Below are positions 1 to 9,137 of a stretch of 64,000 bases of DNA, piece after piece. This stretch comes from Natribacillus halophilus. GTDB taxonomy: Bacteria; Bacillota; Bacilli; Bacillales; Marinococcaceae. Positions within the stretch are counted from its first letter, which is position 1; each line of letters begins with the position of its first letter. Location of the stretch: NCBI RefSeq assembly GCF_900100185.1, contig NZ_FNEN01000004.1, positions 1-64,000 of the forward strand, given 5' to 3'. The position numbers and the translations under genes are program-made. The notes under the pieces are model-generated. The model saw only the letters and a list, made by a program, of their open reading frames with translations, had not been told where the DNA came from and did not search any database.

Positions 1-300
1 CAGGGTTCACTTGGGAAGAAAGGGCATTCCGGCATCTTAAAAACCAAGAAAACCCGAAAGAAATTTCTCAAAGACAAAAGTCATCGCATCCAGTTCGTTT
101 ATACACCGAAACACTGCTCATGGCTCAACCAAATCGAATGCTGGTTCAGTATTCTGTGTCGGGATTTAATCAACCCGAGAGCTAGCTTTACATCCATTGA
201 TGACTTAGCTTATCGCTTAGCTCAATATATCGAATATTATAATCAACATTTGGCCAAGCCGTTCCATTGGACGTTCAAAGGTCGTCCTTTGCAGGTGTGA
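1..300 (+). pseudogene. IS630-family transposase, C-terminal part (cut by window edge)
   Basis: Frame 1 is open from the left edge to TGA at 298-300, giving about 99 residues. HCSWLNQIECWFSILCRDL carries the last catalytic Glu in the N-x-I-E-x-x-W block of IS630/Tc1-type DDE transposases, followed by the usual tail with YYNQH. The N-terminal DDE residues lie outside the window, so whether the full gene is intact is unknown. The element abuts the 3' end of the McrB-like gene on the other strand and appears to have truncated it. Confidence 0.85.
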
Positions 301-309
301 TCACTTATT

Positions 310-1902
310 TCAGCCGTTTTGCACTAGTTTATTATCCAACCATTCGTCCCCGGAATTTATATCAATATATTCAAATTCCCATCTTCTTTTAAAGGCAGTA
401 TCTAAAGGGAAAACTCCTTGGTCGGCACTATTCATTGTTGCCCATATATACAAATTGTTTGGTAAGTATAAGTGATCTATATCTATTCCATTCATTCGTA
501 AATACATTTCCATTTCATAAGGTATTGAAATACTATAATCACTAAATCCGTCATCATCTCGATCGAGTATTTGAAACATATCACCAAACACGGCAGCAAC
601 ATTTGAACGATTGATCTCTTCTATGATCAACAAATAATTTTCTTCTTCATATTTTAATGCTTTGGTCAATATTCGAAGGAATGGTCCGGCTATATACTCA
701 TAAGTTACTGATGGCTCGTTAATAATGGGATATAATTCTTCATACTCTTCATCATTTATATTAATTACATCTTCAACAGAATATGGAGTTCTAGAGTATC
801 TTTCCGATTTACCATGTTCTTTATATATAGGAATTGGTTTGTATGATCCTACAAACTGAGCGTAAGAGTAATTCGGATGAAAAGTAACCCTTTCAAAGTT
901 TTCACCAAACTGCTCTTTATCAATGTTAAGCAAGTGACTTTTTCCTGTACCAGGTGCCCCATATATAATTCTGTTGTATGGCTTATCAATAGTATCAAGC
1001 TTTTGTATATCGCTGTTTTCTCTTTGGGGGTCTTGATCTAGTACATCAATAGTTATATTTGTAAGAGGCAAATAGTTGTTAATCCGTTCTGTATATTGTT
1101 TTAGTTCTTCTATATCCACACCATCGTTTACTATTGCTTCGTTGTCCTGTCTTTTTATATAAAAGTTTAGATTTTGACTTAATATATTGCGGAGAACACG
1201 AAGTGGCCCCTTTGGTTCCACTTCGCCTGTGATGTTCACATTAGTTTCACCATTAATTAACTGGGTGTAAATTCCCGATTGAAAGAATTTAATATCATCG
1301 TCATCATTAATCTGTACTCTGTAAACAGTTTCTTCCGATAAATGTGTGAATGCCTTTATTAATTTCTTTTCAAAAGAAGCATCGTATTGTAGTTTCTCTT
1401 CTGTTAGCCATGTAAACAATACCTTCTTAAAATCTTGTTCTTTAAGACTAATAAGAAGATCTAATTGATCAATGACTTTTGTAAAGCGTAATACTTTTTT
1501 ATATCGATCTCCTCCCTCTCTCTCCGCACTATCAGCAAGCTTATCATTTTCAAAATCAATGATAACGATCTTCCAAATTAATTCTAAACCTACAATCAGG
1601 TGTTCTATTTGAGAACGCACCAAGTTATTATAATCTAATATGTTATTAAATTTATTTTCATCCAAATCGGTCTCTTCTAGCTCTGCCGAGAAGTACTCTT
1701 TGATTTGCTCCTTCAATTCATCCTTTAATGCTATTTTATTATCCGCTGCTTCTTGCGAGTAATATAATTCAGCTTTTTCATCGTTTATCTTCCAAAGTAC
1801 ATATATTAGGCTTAGTAGTGGCTTTACTTTTGGAAGAGAAGATTTAATTCCTAGTTTAAGCTCTGTTTTTTTGTAATCATTTATTTTTTTAGGATATATC
1901 AT
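310..1902 (-). CDS. McrB-like AAA+ GTPase/ATPase of a restriction system, 3'-truncated
   Basis: 530 residues. An N-terminal region of about 300 residues without a recognised fold (probably DNA recognition) is followed by an AAA+ module: Walker A GAPGTGKS at about 315-322, Walker B LLIIEEINRSN at about 424-434, and the McrB-type MNSAD block at about 490 followed by FKRRWEF. McrB/LlaJI-R1 proteins normally continue well past this block. Here the frame stops 20 residues later (VQNG-stop) at the edge of the IS630 element, so the C-terminal lid and the downstream McrC-like nuclease gene are missing or displaced. It lies 74 bp after the cytosine methyltransferase, same strand. A GGAGG stands 12 nt before the ATG. 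Restriction is probably inactive in this form. Confidence 0.85.
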   Translation of the reverse strand: MIYPKKINDYKKTELKLGIKSSLPKVKPLLSLIYVLWKINDEKAELYYSQEAADNKIALKDELKEQIKEYFSAELEETDLDENKFNNILDYNNLVRSQIEHLIVGLELIWKIVIIDFENDKLADSAEREGGDRYKKVLRFTKVIDQLDLLISLKEQDFKKVLFTWLTEEKLQYDASFEKKLIKAFTHLSEETVYRVQINDDDDIKFFQSGIYTQLINGETNVNITGEVEPKGPLRVLRNILSQNLNFYIKRQDNEAIVNDGVDIEELKQYTERINNYLPLTNITIDVLDQDPQRENSDIQKLDTIDKPYNRIIYGAPGTGKSHLLNIDKEQFGENFERVTFHPNYSYAQFVGSYKPIPIYKEHGKSERYSRTPYSVEDVININDEEYEELYPIINEPSVTYEYIAGPFLRILTKALKYEEENYLLIIEEINRSNVAAVFGDMFQILDRDDDGFSDYSISIPYEMEMYLRMNGIDIDHLYLPNNLYIWATMNSADQGVFPLDTAFKRRWEFEYIDINSGDEWLDNKLVQNG

Positions 1903-1976
1903 ATAGATGAGTTGCCTCCATTATGTGCACAGGTAAATAAAAAATATCAGCTTTAATTATATGGCAACAATTTTCT

Positions 1977-3059
1977 CTAATCAACCTTTCCAGAAACTAC
2001 TATATTTTCTGGTATAGTCATGTCTCTATAAATTACCTCAGCAATTTTTAGGGCTAGTTTAGGAGGTACTGCATTTCCCACTTGTTTCATTTGAGAGGAT
2101 TTTGTTCCATAGAATCTGAATGTATCAGGAAAGGACTGGAACCTTGCAGCTTCTCTAACTGTAATGGCTCTATGCAAGAAAGGATGTGTGAACCTCCCGG
2201 ATGAGGGTGTATCAAATCTGGTAGTCATCGTTACTGATGGTTGATCTTCAATAATTCTTCCCCAAGTACCACTGTAAATGGACTTTGTATGATGTTCCTT
2301 CGGTAATGATTCTCTTCCTTTACCTTTTGGAACCATTCTCATCCGTTCAATCGCCAGCTTAGAGTGTTTTGTAGCCACGTGATTAAACAGTTTTGTAGAA
2401 CCTTTTCTTAATTCGCTTTGATAAAACGAATGGGGTGTAAATTTATATTCTTGTATTTCTTCTCCCTCGCCAGAATCTAAAAAAGCTAAATCCTCTATTG
2501 CATCTATTGCTGTAACACGATCTGATGTTCCTAATGGTAAGCTAATATGGCCATTATATTTACCAAGTATAAAAGCTCTCCGACGAATTTGTGGGACTCC
2601 ATATTCAAACGCATTAATAATGGCAGAATCTAAATTATAGCCTATTTCATTAAACATATCATATATTACTTTCTTGAAATGGCCATTGTTAGTCGTAAGG
2701 ATGTTGGGTACATTCTCTATTAAAAAATATGTTGGTCTAATGTACTCGACTACATTATAAAAAAACCTAAACAAAAAGTTCCTATCATCTTCTAATATGT
2801 TCCTATGTCCTTTTTGTGAGAAGCCTTGACATGGAGGTCCTCCGATAATAACATCGACGTTTCCTTTATATGGATGAAAATAAGAGCTATCTATCTTTGT
2901 TATATCCTCATTTAGCATATTAACTCCAATATGGTTTGATTGGTAAGAAAATGCAATATCAGAATCAATTTCATTTGATAGTACTATTTTAAATCCTGCA
3001 TTCCTAAAGCCATGGGATAACCCACCTACGCCCGAAAACAAATCCATTACACTCAACAT
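1977..3059 (-). CDS. DNA (cytosine-5)-methyltransferase
   Basis: Methylates cytosine C5 in a specific DNA site, protecting host DNA. Visible motifs in order: MDLFSGVGG (SAM binding, motif I), GGPPCQGFSQ (motif IV, catalytic Cys), ENVPNIL (motif VI), PQIRRRAFILG (motif VIII), and a C-terminal GNAVPPKLA (motif X). About 360 residues, usual length. I start at ATG 3057-3059 because GAGG lies 11 nt upstream and motif I follows at once; a GTG at 3081-3083 would add eight residues. The preceding N-type methyltransferase stops at 3073-3075, so the two are tightly coupled. The pair plus the McrB-like gene resembles LlaJI/BsuMI systems, which use two methyltransferases. Confidence 0.93.
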   Translation of the reverse strand: MLSVMDLFSGVGGLSHGFRNAGFKIVLSNEIDSDIAFSYQSNHIGVNMLNEDITKIDSSYFHPYKGNVDVIIGGPPCQGFSQKGHRNILEDDRNFLFRFFYNVVEYIRPTYFLIENVPNILTTNNGHFKKVIYDMFNEIGYNLDSAIINAFEYGVPQIRRRAFILGKYNGHISLPLGTSDRVTAIDAIEDLAFLDSGEGEEIQEYKFTPHSFYQSELRKGSTKLFNHVATKHSKLAIERMRMVPKGKGRESLPKEHHTKSIYSGTWGRIIEDQPSVTMTTRFDTPSSGRFTHPFLHRAITVREAARFQSFPDTFRFYGTKSSQMKQVGNAVPPKLALKIAEVIYRDMTIPENIVVSGKVD

Positions 3060-3072
3060 ACCAATCCATTCC

Positions 3073-3846
3073 TCATTCACCAATCAAATTTGTTATTTCA
3101 ATTATGTTATCATCTGAAGCTTGTTCGTCAATTCTTTTCTTGGCTGCTTCATAATAATTTTTTTCAATTTCACATCCTATAAAATTACGACCTAATTTTT
3201 TTGCTGCTACACCAGTTGTTCCACTTCCCATAAACGTATCTAGTATTGTATCATTTTGATTTGACATTAATCTAATAAAGTGTTCCATTAAAGCTAGTGG
3301 TTTTTGAGTTGGATGTGAAATATGTTTTTTTTCCTTTTTTGTAGCTGCTGAAGTTTCAATAAAATCATGAATAGCTTTCCCATCGTTATTATATGTACCT
3401 GTGCGGCCACTGTTAATAAAGTAGATCCAACCCTCTGTAGAATTAATAAAGTGAAGATTCATATTTCTAGGCATTGGATTCGTTTTGTGCCATATTCCTG
3501 TTGTCTTATAATAGAAGCTATGCAACTCAGCTATTTTAACAACAGATTCTACTCTGATTAGGGACATAAAGACAATGAGAGTGCCTTCCTTTTTTAACAC
3601 TCTGTTTGACTCAGAAAAGAACTTCTTCATAAATTCTATCCAGTCATCACTTTGTGATTCATCCCAGCCCGCGTCACCAAAAAAGTTTTCTCGCATTCGT
3701 TTTAAATTTGTTTGCCGTTTTTTCATGAAATTCGCTAGGTTATAAGGAGGATCAGTAAGTATGAAGTCAATGCTGTTACTTTCTAGATTGAGTAACGTTT
3801 CAATGCAATCACGGTTATATAACGATATAGTTGGTTCAAACTTCAT
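3073..3846 (-). CDS. Site-specific DNA methyltransferase, N6-adenine or N4-cytosine type
   Basis: 257 residues. Motif IV TDPPYN is near residue 31 and the SAM-binding motif DTFMGSGTTG is near residue 201, i.e. catalytic motif first, the beta-class order. HPTQKPLALMEHFI, typical of beta-class enzymes, lies just before it. DPPY is compatible with adenine or N4-cytosine as the target; sequence does not decide. First gene of the minus-strand restriction operon, with AAGGGTG a few bases before ATG. Together with the cytosine enzyme it could protect the two strands of an asymmetric site. Confidence 0.92.
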   Translation of the reverse strand: MKFEPTISLYNRDCIETLLNLESNSIDFILTDPPYNLANFMKKRQTNLKRMRENFFGDAGWDESQSDDWIEFMKKFFSESNRVLKKEGTLIVFMSLIRVESVVKIAELHSFYYKTTGIWHKTNPMPRNMNLHFINSTEGWIYFINSGRTGTYNNDGKAIHDFIETSAATKKEKKHISHPTQKPLALMEHFIRLMSNQNDTILDTFMGSGTTGVAAKKLGRNFIGCEIEKNYYEAAKKRIDEQASDDNIIEITNLIGE

Positions 3847-4337
3847 TAAATCACCCTTCTCTATATTATTGTATAAGATTTAGTAACGATAAATTCTATT
3901 ATATTATAGTTAAGTCATTTTGTAACCAGTTAGATTATTGTTACGAACCATTGTTTGTATTATTATTGTAGCAAATTTCTGTTCGCAAAGATAGTAATTT
4001 GAGCAAAGCGATACTTTTTTTCTTTTCATTGGATGGATGAAGGAAAGGAAGTAAGAAGAATAGAGAAGGTTTGTATAAATTAATGTTCTTATCACTAACC
4101 ATAGGACACAATCACGTATAGAAAGTACATGATGTTCAGGGAGAAATGAATAATAATTTAGGGGTTGCTGACCGTCCTACTTCTCATTTCATTCAAGCAA
4201 CTTCGGGGCTGTCTTAGTAAGAATTTTGGTGAGGGCATACTGGATGAAGATTTAACGATTCGGAAAAACCGAATTGTTCTAATGAAGGGAGAAGTTGGAA
4301 GAGAAATTTCATTTTTTACAAGTAGTAGGGGTGTTTC
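3847..4337. other. Intergenic, divergent promoters expected
   Basis: About 490 bp of AT-rich sequence between the leftward restriction operon and the rightward Nmad3 pseudogene. It must hold both promoters, but I see no clear consensus pair. Short open frames here (3910-4095, 4165-4500) have no recognisable content or ribosome binding site. Confidence 0.4.
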
Positions 4338-5184
4338 ATGTCCCGAAAAGTCATCCTCAGCAGAAAAGGTTTTGATGGATCCGCAGGCGGCAAACCGAGT
4401 CCGATTTTGGATAACAAGTTCGTGTCTTTGCCCATTCCAAGAGCAGAATCTGGTATTTTTTATAAAGATTTATCGTTGTCTTCAGAGGGAAATTACCTGA
4501 AGATAATGAAATATTTAGGGATCAAAATGTTTTCCGAAGCGAATTTAGACCCTGATTTGCAACGCTCGCTCTTGGAAGAACGTCATGAAGGAATGGCGAG
4601 GTTTATTTGGGCAATCCGGTAATTCGCTGGGGACGTTACGTTATCGGGATGTCGGGGAAGGGGATATTTTTCTTTTCTTCGGGTGGTTTAAGGAAGCAAG
4701 GAAAGAAGATGGCGTTTGGAAGTATGTCCCTCATGCCCCCAATATACACGCACTATATGGGTATTTGGAAGTTGATCGTGAACTGGATATCAAGGCAGGG
4801 GATCTAGTTCCTCCATGGGCAGCCTATCATCCTCATATAAAAAACAGTCATGAGCACAGAATAGGCGGAAATAGTGTGTATATGGCAACTTCAGAGTTCA
4901 GCAAAAATACCGAACAGCCAGGGTGGGGTTGTTTTCACTACGATCCACGGCTTGTCCTTACCAATGAAGACAAAACTGCACGTTCATTTTGGAAGTTGCC
5001 CGCTTGCTTTCAGGGAGAGCAAGATCAATTCACTTCCGGAATAAGAACATGGAATGTGCTGCCCGACGGTATGATTGAAATGCAAACCATCGGAAGGGGA
5101 GATCAGGAAATGTATGTAAGCAGCAATCCGGAGGTTGTTAAGTGGGCGGAGGAGTTAATTATGAATTGTACGGTTTATGAATAG
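4338..5184 (+). pseudogene. Nmad3-family protein (nucleotide modification associated domain 3), frameshifted
   Basis: The first frame begins at ATG 4338 with KVILSRKGFDGSAGGKPSP and SLPIPRAES, the family's N-terminal signature. It runs to ...LLEERHEGMARF and stops at 4620. The +1 frame resumes with WRGLFGQSG, then GDIFLFFGWFKEA and HPHIKNSHEHR, to TGA 5184. Joining at GAAGGA(A)TGG near 4592 gives a continuous protein of about 281 residues, and the 847-bp length fits one extra base. Nmad3 proteins have been linked by comparative genomics to modified-base DNA systems; the biochemical role is not established. Neighbourhood with two DNA methyltransferases fits a defence or modification context. 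Either a real null allele or a base-call error. Confidence 0.8.
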
Positions 5185-7123: not shown

Positions 7124-7717
7124 TTAACCAGAACGTCGTTGCAGCTTGTCCAGCTCTCGGTCGTGTTCACCGATTTTTCGGTCAAAATAGACAAAGTCTT
7201 CTTTGGTGGCGGTGTTGTTTTTAACGGCATTCAAATCGATTCTTATCGTCTCTACATCTGATCCCAGCGCGTCTAACTTTGCCGCTGTTTCTTCTAGGCC
7301 GTTGCGAAGAGCTCGTGTGATTTGCTGTAGTTCTGAGATTGACTCCCGCATGCCAGTCTGAGATATCTGTAACTCAGATATTGACTCCCGTATGCCGGTT
7401 TGTGATGTCTGTAACTCAGATATTGACTCCCGTATGCCGGTCTGTGATGTCTGTAGCTCAGATATTGATTCCCGTATGCCAGTATTGGATGTCTGGAGCT
7501 CTGTAATAGATTCCTGCATGCCGGCCTGAGATTTTTGAAGCTCTGAAATGGAGTCCCGCATACCAGCCTGAGATTTCTGCAGCTCTGAGATGGACCCTCG
7601 CATGTCGGTCTGGGAGTTGTGCAATTCTGTAATAGATTCCTGTATGCCGGCCTGGGATTTCTGCATTTCTGTAACAGCTTCAATCAATGTTTCAATTTTC
7701 TGTTCGATTGTGCTCAT
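7124..7717 (-). CDS. Coiled-coil protein with 14-residue tandem repeats
   Basis: 197 residues from ATG 7715-7717 (GAAAGGA 8 nt upstream; an upstream ATG at 7747 has no good site). After EQKIETLIEAVTEMQKSQ come eight 14-residue units of the type SISELQKSQAGMRD, two heptads each, a regular left-handed coiled coil. The tail (LEETAAKLDALGSDVETI, then KIGEHDRELDKLQ) is also helical. No signal peptide or membrane anchor. Similar in plan to 13063-13347 and 30559-31155; function unknown, possibly a scaffold. The 42-bp DNA repeat makes copy-number change by slippage likely. Confidence 0.75.
   Translation of the reverse strand: MSTIEQKIETLIEAVTEMQKSQAGIQESITELHNSQTDMRGSISELQKSQAGMRDSISELQKSQAGMQESITELQTSNTGIRESISELQTSQTGIRESISELQTSQTGIRESISELQISQTGMRESISELQQITRALRNGLEETAAKLDALGSDVETIRIDLNAVKNNTATKEDFVYFDRKIGEHDRELDKLQRRSG
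7325..7660 (-). repeat. 42-bp tandem repeat, 8 units, coding
   Basis: Units begin near 7341, 7383, 7425, 7467, 7509, 7551, 7593 and 7635, spacing exactly 42 bp. They encode the 14-residue coiled-coil repeats. The units at 7341-7467 are nearly identical; the later ones have diverged. Confidence 0.9.
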
Positions 7718-7864
7718 ATATATCGTCCTTTCTATGTTTGTACTCATTGTATCATCTTTTCATCCTTGCGGGGGAATTTTTCGTTTAATAACGAGAGCGT
7801 TGGTTCCGGGTTGGTATAATGAATGATAGAAATTGAACGATTATTATACTGAGGAGTGTCAAAC

Positions 7865-8821
7865 ATGACCATTCACCACCATCATCACGCGTACACGACC
7901 ATTCATGATTTTGTCTCTCACAAGCATTATGGCTGGGACAATGCTCTTGCACCTATCGCAGAGGTAGATGCTGGACAGACGGTAAACTATCAAATTACAG
8001 AAGCTTCGGACGGGCAATTTACGAAGCATTCGACGGTAGATGACGTAAAAAATATTGATTTCGGCAAAGTGAACCCGGTGGCCGGTCCTATTTATGTGAA
8101 AGGTGCCGAGCCGGGTGATACGTTGGAAGTGGAAATGCTCGATTTTCGTCATTTGGAGTGGGGTTGGACGGCGCTGATTCCGGGCTTCGGGTTGTTGGCG
8201 GATGAGTTTGAAAACCCGGCCATCAAGACGTTTGATTTGACGGGAGCGCATAAAACGGAATTTTTGGATGGGATCGATATCTTTTTAAAACCTTTTCCGG
8301 GGACAGCCGGCGTTGCCCTTCCTGAAAAAGGGAATTTCAGTGTCGTGCCTCCGCGAAAGAATGGCGGAAATGTGGATATTCGCCATCTTACACGCGGCAC
8401 TAAATTATACCTGCCGGTTTGGGTAGAGGGCGCCTTGTTTTCGATTGGGGATACTCACGCAGCCCAGGGGGATGGAGAAGTGTGCGGAACAGCTATCGAA
8501 GCATCGATGGAAGCTTCCGTCCGCTTCAAGCTGCACAAAGGGAAATCGATCGCCGAACCGCGCTATGAAATCCCCGGGCCGCCAACGCCGGAAGCCGATA
8601 GCCGCGGGTATTATGTCACTACGGGGCATGGGGAAGATTTTATGACCGCATCCAAAAACGCGATCCGTTATATGGTCGAACACCTGGTGGATACGTATAA
8701 AATGACTGATGAAGAAGCGTATATGCTCTGTAGCATTGCGGTGGATCTGCGCATAAGCGAAATCGTCAATATGCCGCATTGCCTTGTTTCCGCGTTTTTG
8801 CCGAATAGTATTTTTAGGTGA
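7865..8821 (+). CDS. Acetamidase/formamidase family amidohydrolase
   Basis: 318 residues, FmdA/AmdA family, hydrolysing short aliphatic amides to the acid and ammonia. Visible family blocks: NPVAGPIYVKGAEPGDTLEV, GWTALIPGFGLL, SIGDTHAAQGDGEVCGTAIE (conserved D-x-H, E and C residues of the metal site) and ISEIVNMPHCLVSA. Start at ATG 7865 since GAGGAG at 7851-7856 is 8 nt away; GTG 7856 overlaps that site. The N-terminus reads MTIHHHHHAY, a natural His run. Monocistronic; the following 380 bp are a tandem-repeat array. Confidence 0.92.
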   Translation: MTIHHHHHAYTTIHDFVSHKHYGWDNALAPIAEVDAGQTVNYQITEASDGQFTKHSTVDDVKNIDFGKVNPVAGPIYVKGAEPGDTLEVEMLDFRHLEWGWTALIPGFGLLADEFENPAIKTFDLTGAHKTEFLDGIDIFLKPFPGTAGVALPEKGNFSVVPPRKNGGNVDIRHLTRGTKLYLPVWVEGALFSIGDTHAAQGDGEVCGTAIEASMEASVRFKLHKGKSIAEPRYEIPGPPTPEADSRGYYVTTGHGEDFMTASKNAIRYMVEHLVDTYKMTDEEAYMLCSIAVDLRISEIVNMPHCLVSAFLPNSIFR

Positions 8822-8850: not shown

Positions 8851-9092
8851 GGAATCGAGTTTCTGATCCCTCTCGTGTCAGCTCCCCTGGCTTTAGAAGG
8901 ATCACAGCGAGCCTCTGATCCCTCACGGGTCGGTTCCCCTGGCTTTAGAGGGATCACAGCGAGCCTCTGATCCCTCACGGATCGGCCCCCCTGGCGTTTG
9001 AGGGATCACAGCGAGCCTCTGACCCCTCACGGATCGGCCCCCTAGCTTTAGAGGGATCACACCGCGCATCTGATCCCTCACGGGTCTATCTC
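8851..9092. repeat. 52-bp intergenic tandem repeat with palindromic core, 5 units
   Basis: Units start with GGATCACAGCGAGCCTCTGA at 8899, 8951, 9003 and 9054, plus a degenerate unit at 8851; spacing 48, 52, 52, 51. Each holds AGGGATCA...TGATCCCT, an 8-bp inverted repeat around a short loop, so each transcript copy can fold. No spacers, so not CRISPR. It fills most of the gap between the amidase and decarboxylase genes. Confidence 0.88.
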
Positions 9093-9137
9093 TCTTTAAT
9101 TCTTTGGTTTTACCTTGTCTTGTTTTTGCCTATGTGT

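Follow-up and report, generated by a model that had tools for sequence, protein, structure and literature searches.

A LlaJI-type restriction locus with methyltransferases of two chemistries, interrupted by an IS630-family element, in Natribacillus halophilus

LlaJI, carried by the Lactococcus lactis plasmid pNP40, is encoded by two methyltransferase genes, an McrB-like gene (R1) and a nuclease gene (R2; PF09563, with PD...D/ExK catalytic residues), in that order and in the same orientation. Its two methyltransferases are both m5C enzymes, acting on GACGC/GCGTC; specificity resides in R1 alone, R2 is presumed to be the nuclease, and both subunits are strictly indispensable in vivo (PMC1459862). 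BsuMI of Bacillus subtilis, a species in which the RE_LlaJI family occurs, likewise combines methyltransferases with an McrB-like protein, but there the protein is short and the restriction cassette comprises three genes (PMC1459862), whereas in the locus described here R1 is long and is one of two restriction genes. In the HpyAVI system of Helicobacter pylori (hp0050/hp0051), m6A and m5C enzymes mark opposite strands of the asymmetric sequence GAGG/CCTC (PMC3936762). McrB itself needs an arginine pair for hexamer formation and hydrolysis, and point changes there disrupt the hexamer (PMC7680126). A census of McrBC systems found McrB-like GTPases often associated with methyltransferases and left their treatment to a later paper (PMC11090510).

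The window, by which we mean the whole 64 kb stretch analyzed, is the first part of contig C19 of the N. halophilus genome (3.3 Mb in 47 contigs). Its minus strand encodes, within 310-3846, an N6A/N4C-type methyltransferase, a C5-cytosine methyltransferase and an McrB-like AAA+ protein of which the first 526 residues remain. Profile searches assigned an intact beta-class amino-methyltransferase to 3073-3846 (PF01555 N6_N4_Mtase, 6.8e-47), an intact C5-cytosine DNA methyltransferase to 1977-3083 (PF00145 DNA_methylase, 8.3e-75) and the truncated R1 to 310-1902 (PF07728 AAA_5, 8e-10; PADLOC type II REase model REase_II, 2e-53), so that the identities and coordinates in an earlier note on this DNA proved accurate, as did its statement that both methyltransferase genes had been left intact. 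The beta-class enzyme, in which DPPY precedes FMGSGT, probably modifies N6-adenine, and the true start of the C5 enzyme is probably the ATG at 3059, as in its homologues. With the R2 gene found on contig C16 (see below), the order is N6A-type methyltransferase, C5 methyltransferase, McrB-like R1 and LlaJI-type nuclease R2, which bears out the LlaJI-like layout proposed in the note. The features of a LlaJI-type system are all present, namely a long R1 N-terminal region (~280 residues), a PF09563 R2 and two adjacent methyltransferases co-oriented with R1 and R2, and restriction of unmethylated DNA is a likely further resemblance. Unlike LlaJI sensu stricto, which has two C5-cytosine enzymes, this locus has one of the PF01555 beta class. 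A promoter scan of positions 1-5000 returned 22 candidates against 21.4 expected from shuffled sequence, i.e. no enrichment. Elsewhere in the window, 42-base tandem repeats (7316-7665, about 8 copies) lie inside a minus-strand ORF at 7124-7747 whose 14-residue repeat, such as SISELQTSQTGIRE, is probably a coiled coil, and 52-base direct repeats (8856-9093, about 4.3 copies, 88% matches) lie downstream of the gene at 7856-8821.

The window opens with the right end of an IS630-family element (1-324, plus strand), comprising the last 99 codons of a DDE transposase (1-300; PF13358 DDE_3, 1.6e-9) and a terminal repeat reaching the insertion junction, a CTAG at 324-327 (minus strand) that recurs at the opposite IS end on C16 and at other copies. 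The IS ends, CTAGTGCAAAACGG... on C19 and CTAGTGCACAATGG... on C16, are imperfect terminal repeats; together with the DDE_3 transposase and insertion at TA within CTAG these features place the element in IS630 and uphold the interruption claimed before, with a target duplication of either TA or CTAG fitting these sequences. The R1 frame ends ...RRWEFEYIDINSGDEWLDNKL and then runs through 4 IS codons (VQNG, stop), leaving codons 1-526 of an original 647, with the C-terminal 121 residues lost. Retained upstream of the break are the N-terminal reader domain (residues 1 to about 280), the Walker A motif GAPGTGKS, the Walker B motif LLIIEEINR, the NxxD motif (MNSADQG) and FKRRWEF, whose arginine pair sits just before the break. 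Base 1 of the window is also base 1 of C19, and contig C26 ends in a 100% identical copy of the first 329 bases; the opposite IS end on C16 (1 to about 92) is identical to a copy in C22 (IS copies 100% over 94 bases). The assembly stops at the start of C19 because the IS is repeated, and the break lies inside it.

The earlier note had regarded the nuclease partner as missing and had proposed looking left of the window, beyond the first base of C19, for the rest of the McrB gene. We searched the contigs of the same genome with the nuclease of an intact relative (G076) and obtained a single match, at the start of C16. Here C16:1-1818 carries the opposite IS end, CTAG, the remaining 121 McrB codons (to 459) and an intact 448-aa RE_LlaJI gene (C16:472-1818; PF09563, 1.4e-66) with the PD...D/ExK residues in place as SPDI...LLDAK. 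Joined at the shared CTAG, the C19 and C16 flanks give one open, in-frame McrB of 647 residues that aligns with that of G076 at 55.4% identity over 634 residues, with a single gap of one residue close to the junction, and with that of a second relative, G150, at 48.9% over 642 residues, the alignment spanning the junction. Of the other joins, C19 with C22 runs into unrelated sequence with stops and yields no McrB, and C26 with C16 adds no McrB. Because the flanks join in frame and C16 carries an intact RE_LlaJI gene, the nuclease is not missing: it is intact, and the damage is confined to the motor R1, which breaks off at codon 526 of 647. The order C19-IS-C16 is the one implied by the IS ends and the reading frame, with no single contig spanning the IS interior; recombination between IS copies could have parted the halves, and the gene is broken either way. 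A second intact McrB with a nuclease in this genome, the finding that the note itself had set against its reading, was looked for and none was found; a piecewise search of the contigs for other McrB-like matches gave just one, fragmentary, in a degenerate type IV McrBC locus. This broken locus, whose McrB is divided between two ORFs and whose McrC (PF10117, 1.7e-24) is shortened, lies about 15 kb from the R2 gene (C16:16130-18530; L167:6130-8532); that a genome with this C5 enzyme has lost an m5C-dependent nuclease may not be a coincidence.

The pairing of two chemistries had been called unusual, a view that did not survive comparison. PF09563 was present in 20 of 397 genomes of the same order, and 18 of the 21 places above the cut-off were accompanied by C5-type genes (two, one or, in some cases, more nearby); the other 3 were of the mixed type, in the N. 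halophilus genome, G076 and G150, with the methyltransferase pair of G150 located elsewhere in its genome. When the N-type enzyme was used as the seed, the search gave 80 genomic and 10 viral loci, or 91 including that of G150, and within this sample, which is biased toward close relatives of the seeding enzyme, N-type and C5 genes adjoin in 72 loci, 57 have an McrB whose N-terminal domain matches the one here, and 42 combine N-type and C5 enzymes with McrB and a LlaJI nuclease that could be detected. The side-by-side arrangement in 72/91 loci and the precedent of HpyAVI (PMC3936762) thus make the combination a recurrent one, and record titles place mixed-pair loci in Bacillota, Bacteroidota, Proteobacteria, Spirochaetota and Synergistota, as well as in phages. 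Intact four-gene cassettes of the same four families, their N-type enzymes 51-71% identical to the one here, were found in Alkalicoccobacillus gibsonii (KCCM 41407), on the Acinetobacter pittii plasmid pCEP14_03 and in the Streptococcus phage phiD12, where they are annotated as DNA methylase, C5 methylase, dynein-related protein and LlaJI endonuclease. In A. gibsonii and A. pittii, the two compared in this respect, the R1 reader domain is of the same family as here; unlike here, the methyltransferase genes of A. pittii point away from the restriction genes. The intact order with methyltransferases co-oriented with R1 and R2 is seen in L028/L075. No paper describing the mixed pair in LlaJI-type systems was found, REBASE, which lay outside the search, being a place where such systems may be listed; as far as searchable papers go, the mixed-chemistry subtype is new. 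At L143, L144, L148, L150 and L152 the C5 or McrB frames are split or shortened, and decay of mixed-pair cassettes seems common. In G150 (L060:5557-9070 and L166:7485-9363), the mixed-type McrB and nuclease genes have no methyltransferases beside them, and genes downstream of the nuclease resemble, by eye, a JetABCD (Wadjet) set.

The N-terminal domain of R1 sets these systems apart. A profile of it matched only mixed-type McrBs (N. halophilus, G076, G150 and A. pittii); the 19 other LlaJI-type loci surveyed (18 of the order and an E. coli plasmid), whose N-terminal domains are of another family, gave no match. Searches of Pfam, PHROGs and PDB sequences returned no family for the domain. An AlphaFold model, made with one input row from a plasmid record omitted (pLDDT 87.9 over 322 residues, 91.6 over residues 1-185), is mostly helical with short paired strands. 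Structure matches to this model were all weak, with FokI first (Z 5.0 with an rmsd of 10.3 across 207 residues), followed mostly by winged-helix DNA-binding proteins (Z 3-5); proteins of the B3 fold, which forms the reader domain of H. pylori LlaJI.R1, did not appear among the matches listed; the model thus points to a probable winged-helix-like, DNA-binding module. We also observed the same N-type and C5 pair beside a different restriction module at L082:5728-8988, at L093, L094, L105, L110, L113, L123, L129, L155 and L076 (Kurthia huakuii), and in part at L077. This alternative module consists of a ~255-aa LAGLIDADG-like protein (at L082, Pfam LAGLIDADG_3 9e-5 and Hom_end 2e-4), a short McrB (~420 aa) and McrC (PF10117, 4e-65); the LAGLIDADG-like protein has two motifs (LGGIFAANE and IAGMFDGRG) in which the usual catalytic acids look replaced. 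A homing-endonuclease-like reader may serve an McrBC-based restriction system, an arrangement for which no paper was found.

Taken together, these results make it very probable that the locus belongs to a mixed-chemistry LlaJI subtype and was inactivated recently, the IS630-family element in R1 leaving a methylation-only pair. In the intact system, the two methyltransferases would share one asymmetric site, each modifying a different strand, the N-terminal domain of R1 would read the unmethylated site, a nucleotide-driven ring would assemble and R2 would do the cutting. An IS630-family element has inserted at CTAG in codon 526 of R1, probably recently, because the other frames are all open and the IS copies are identical. 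Since R1 has lost its C-terminal 121 residues, no working R1-R2 complex would form and restriction is expected to be off, while both methyltransferases should still be able to methylate, so that methylation would persist as a remnant of the system. That the cell's McrB gene carries no IS, and that contig ends were wrongly extended through a repeat, is extremely unlikely: both halves do lie at contig ends, and the contigs do break inside the repeated IS, but short-read assembly normally breaks at a multi-copy IS, proper terminal repeats abut CTAG at both flanks, and the flanks diverge at the IS end. We also consider it very improbable that the system still restricts, through reconstitution with R2 of the R1 stub ending after FKRRWEF or of R1 pieces made separately. 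The stub keeps all nucleotide-binding motifs and may have residual activity; the break comes after the reader, the Walker motifs, NxxD and the RR pair, and a 116-aa ORF that could start at a TTG covers the lost part. However, G076 and G150 both conserve that lost part, which comes after the RR helix of the AAA+ module, point changes in the McrB RR pair already disrupt the hexamer (PMC7680126), and LlaJI requires both subunits (PMC1459862).

An asymmetric site shared by both methyltransferases is a reasonable inference from the sequences compared. The motifs PCQ, ENV, QxRRR and GN of the C5 enzyme and its target-recognition region are kept in 72 relatives, and conservation in the 72 side-by-side loci extends to the regions expected to determine target recognition in both methyltransferases, which suggests one target common to the two. 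While the target is not readable from sequence, which would leave room for two enzymes that act at different, unrelated sites and adjoin by chance with no hybrid-marked site, this explanation is decidedly unlikely given that the pair is adjacent and co-oriented in 72/91 loci, that the recognition regions of both proteins are conserved across phyla, that a single R1 reader domain accompanies the pair, and that HpyAVI and HpyAV provide precedents for m5C and m6A on one site (PMC3936762). HpyAVI resembles the pair in its enzyme families (beta-class m6A and m5C), and among solved structures its M1 enzyme (M1.HpyAVI, 5hek) comes closest to the N-type enzyme (2.4e-38). This was nevertheless not accepted as proof that the target here is GAGG/CCTC, because M1.HpyAVI and the N-type enzyme are only distantly similar and a shared target does not follow from such kinship. 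Returning to the common site that we favor, we see an even chance of a distinct, widespread LlaJI subtype defined by m6A/m5C hybrid marking of one asymmetric site and by an R1 with an uncharacterized, probably winged-helix-like N-terminal module, with a second architecture in which the same pair would be served by a LAGLIDADG-like reader (its catalytic positions apparently lost), a short McrB and McrC, so that readers would be exchangeable.

As a disrupted locus this one is ordinary, mobile elements often breaking restriction genes, while the cassettes of phiD12, A. gibsonii and A. pittii are intact. Its importance, which is modest, is that it brought to light a conserved LlaJI subtype of mixed chemistry that has a reader-domain family of its own, and that N. 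halophilus is predicted to be a natural methylation-only strain with restricting, unbroken relatives, which would be useful for examining the effects of methylation without restriction.
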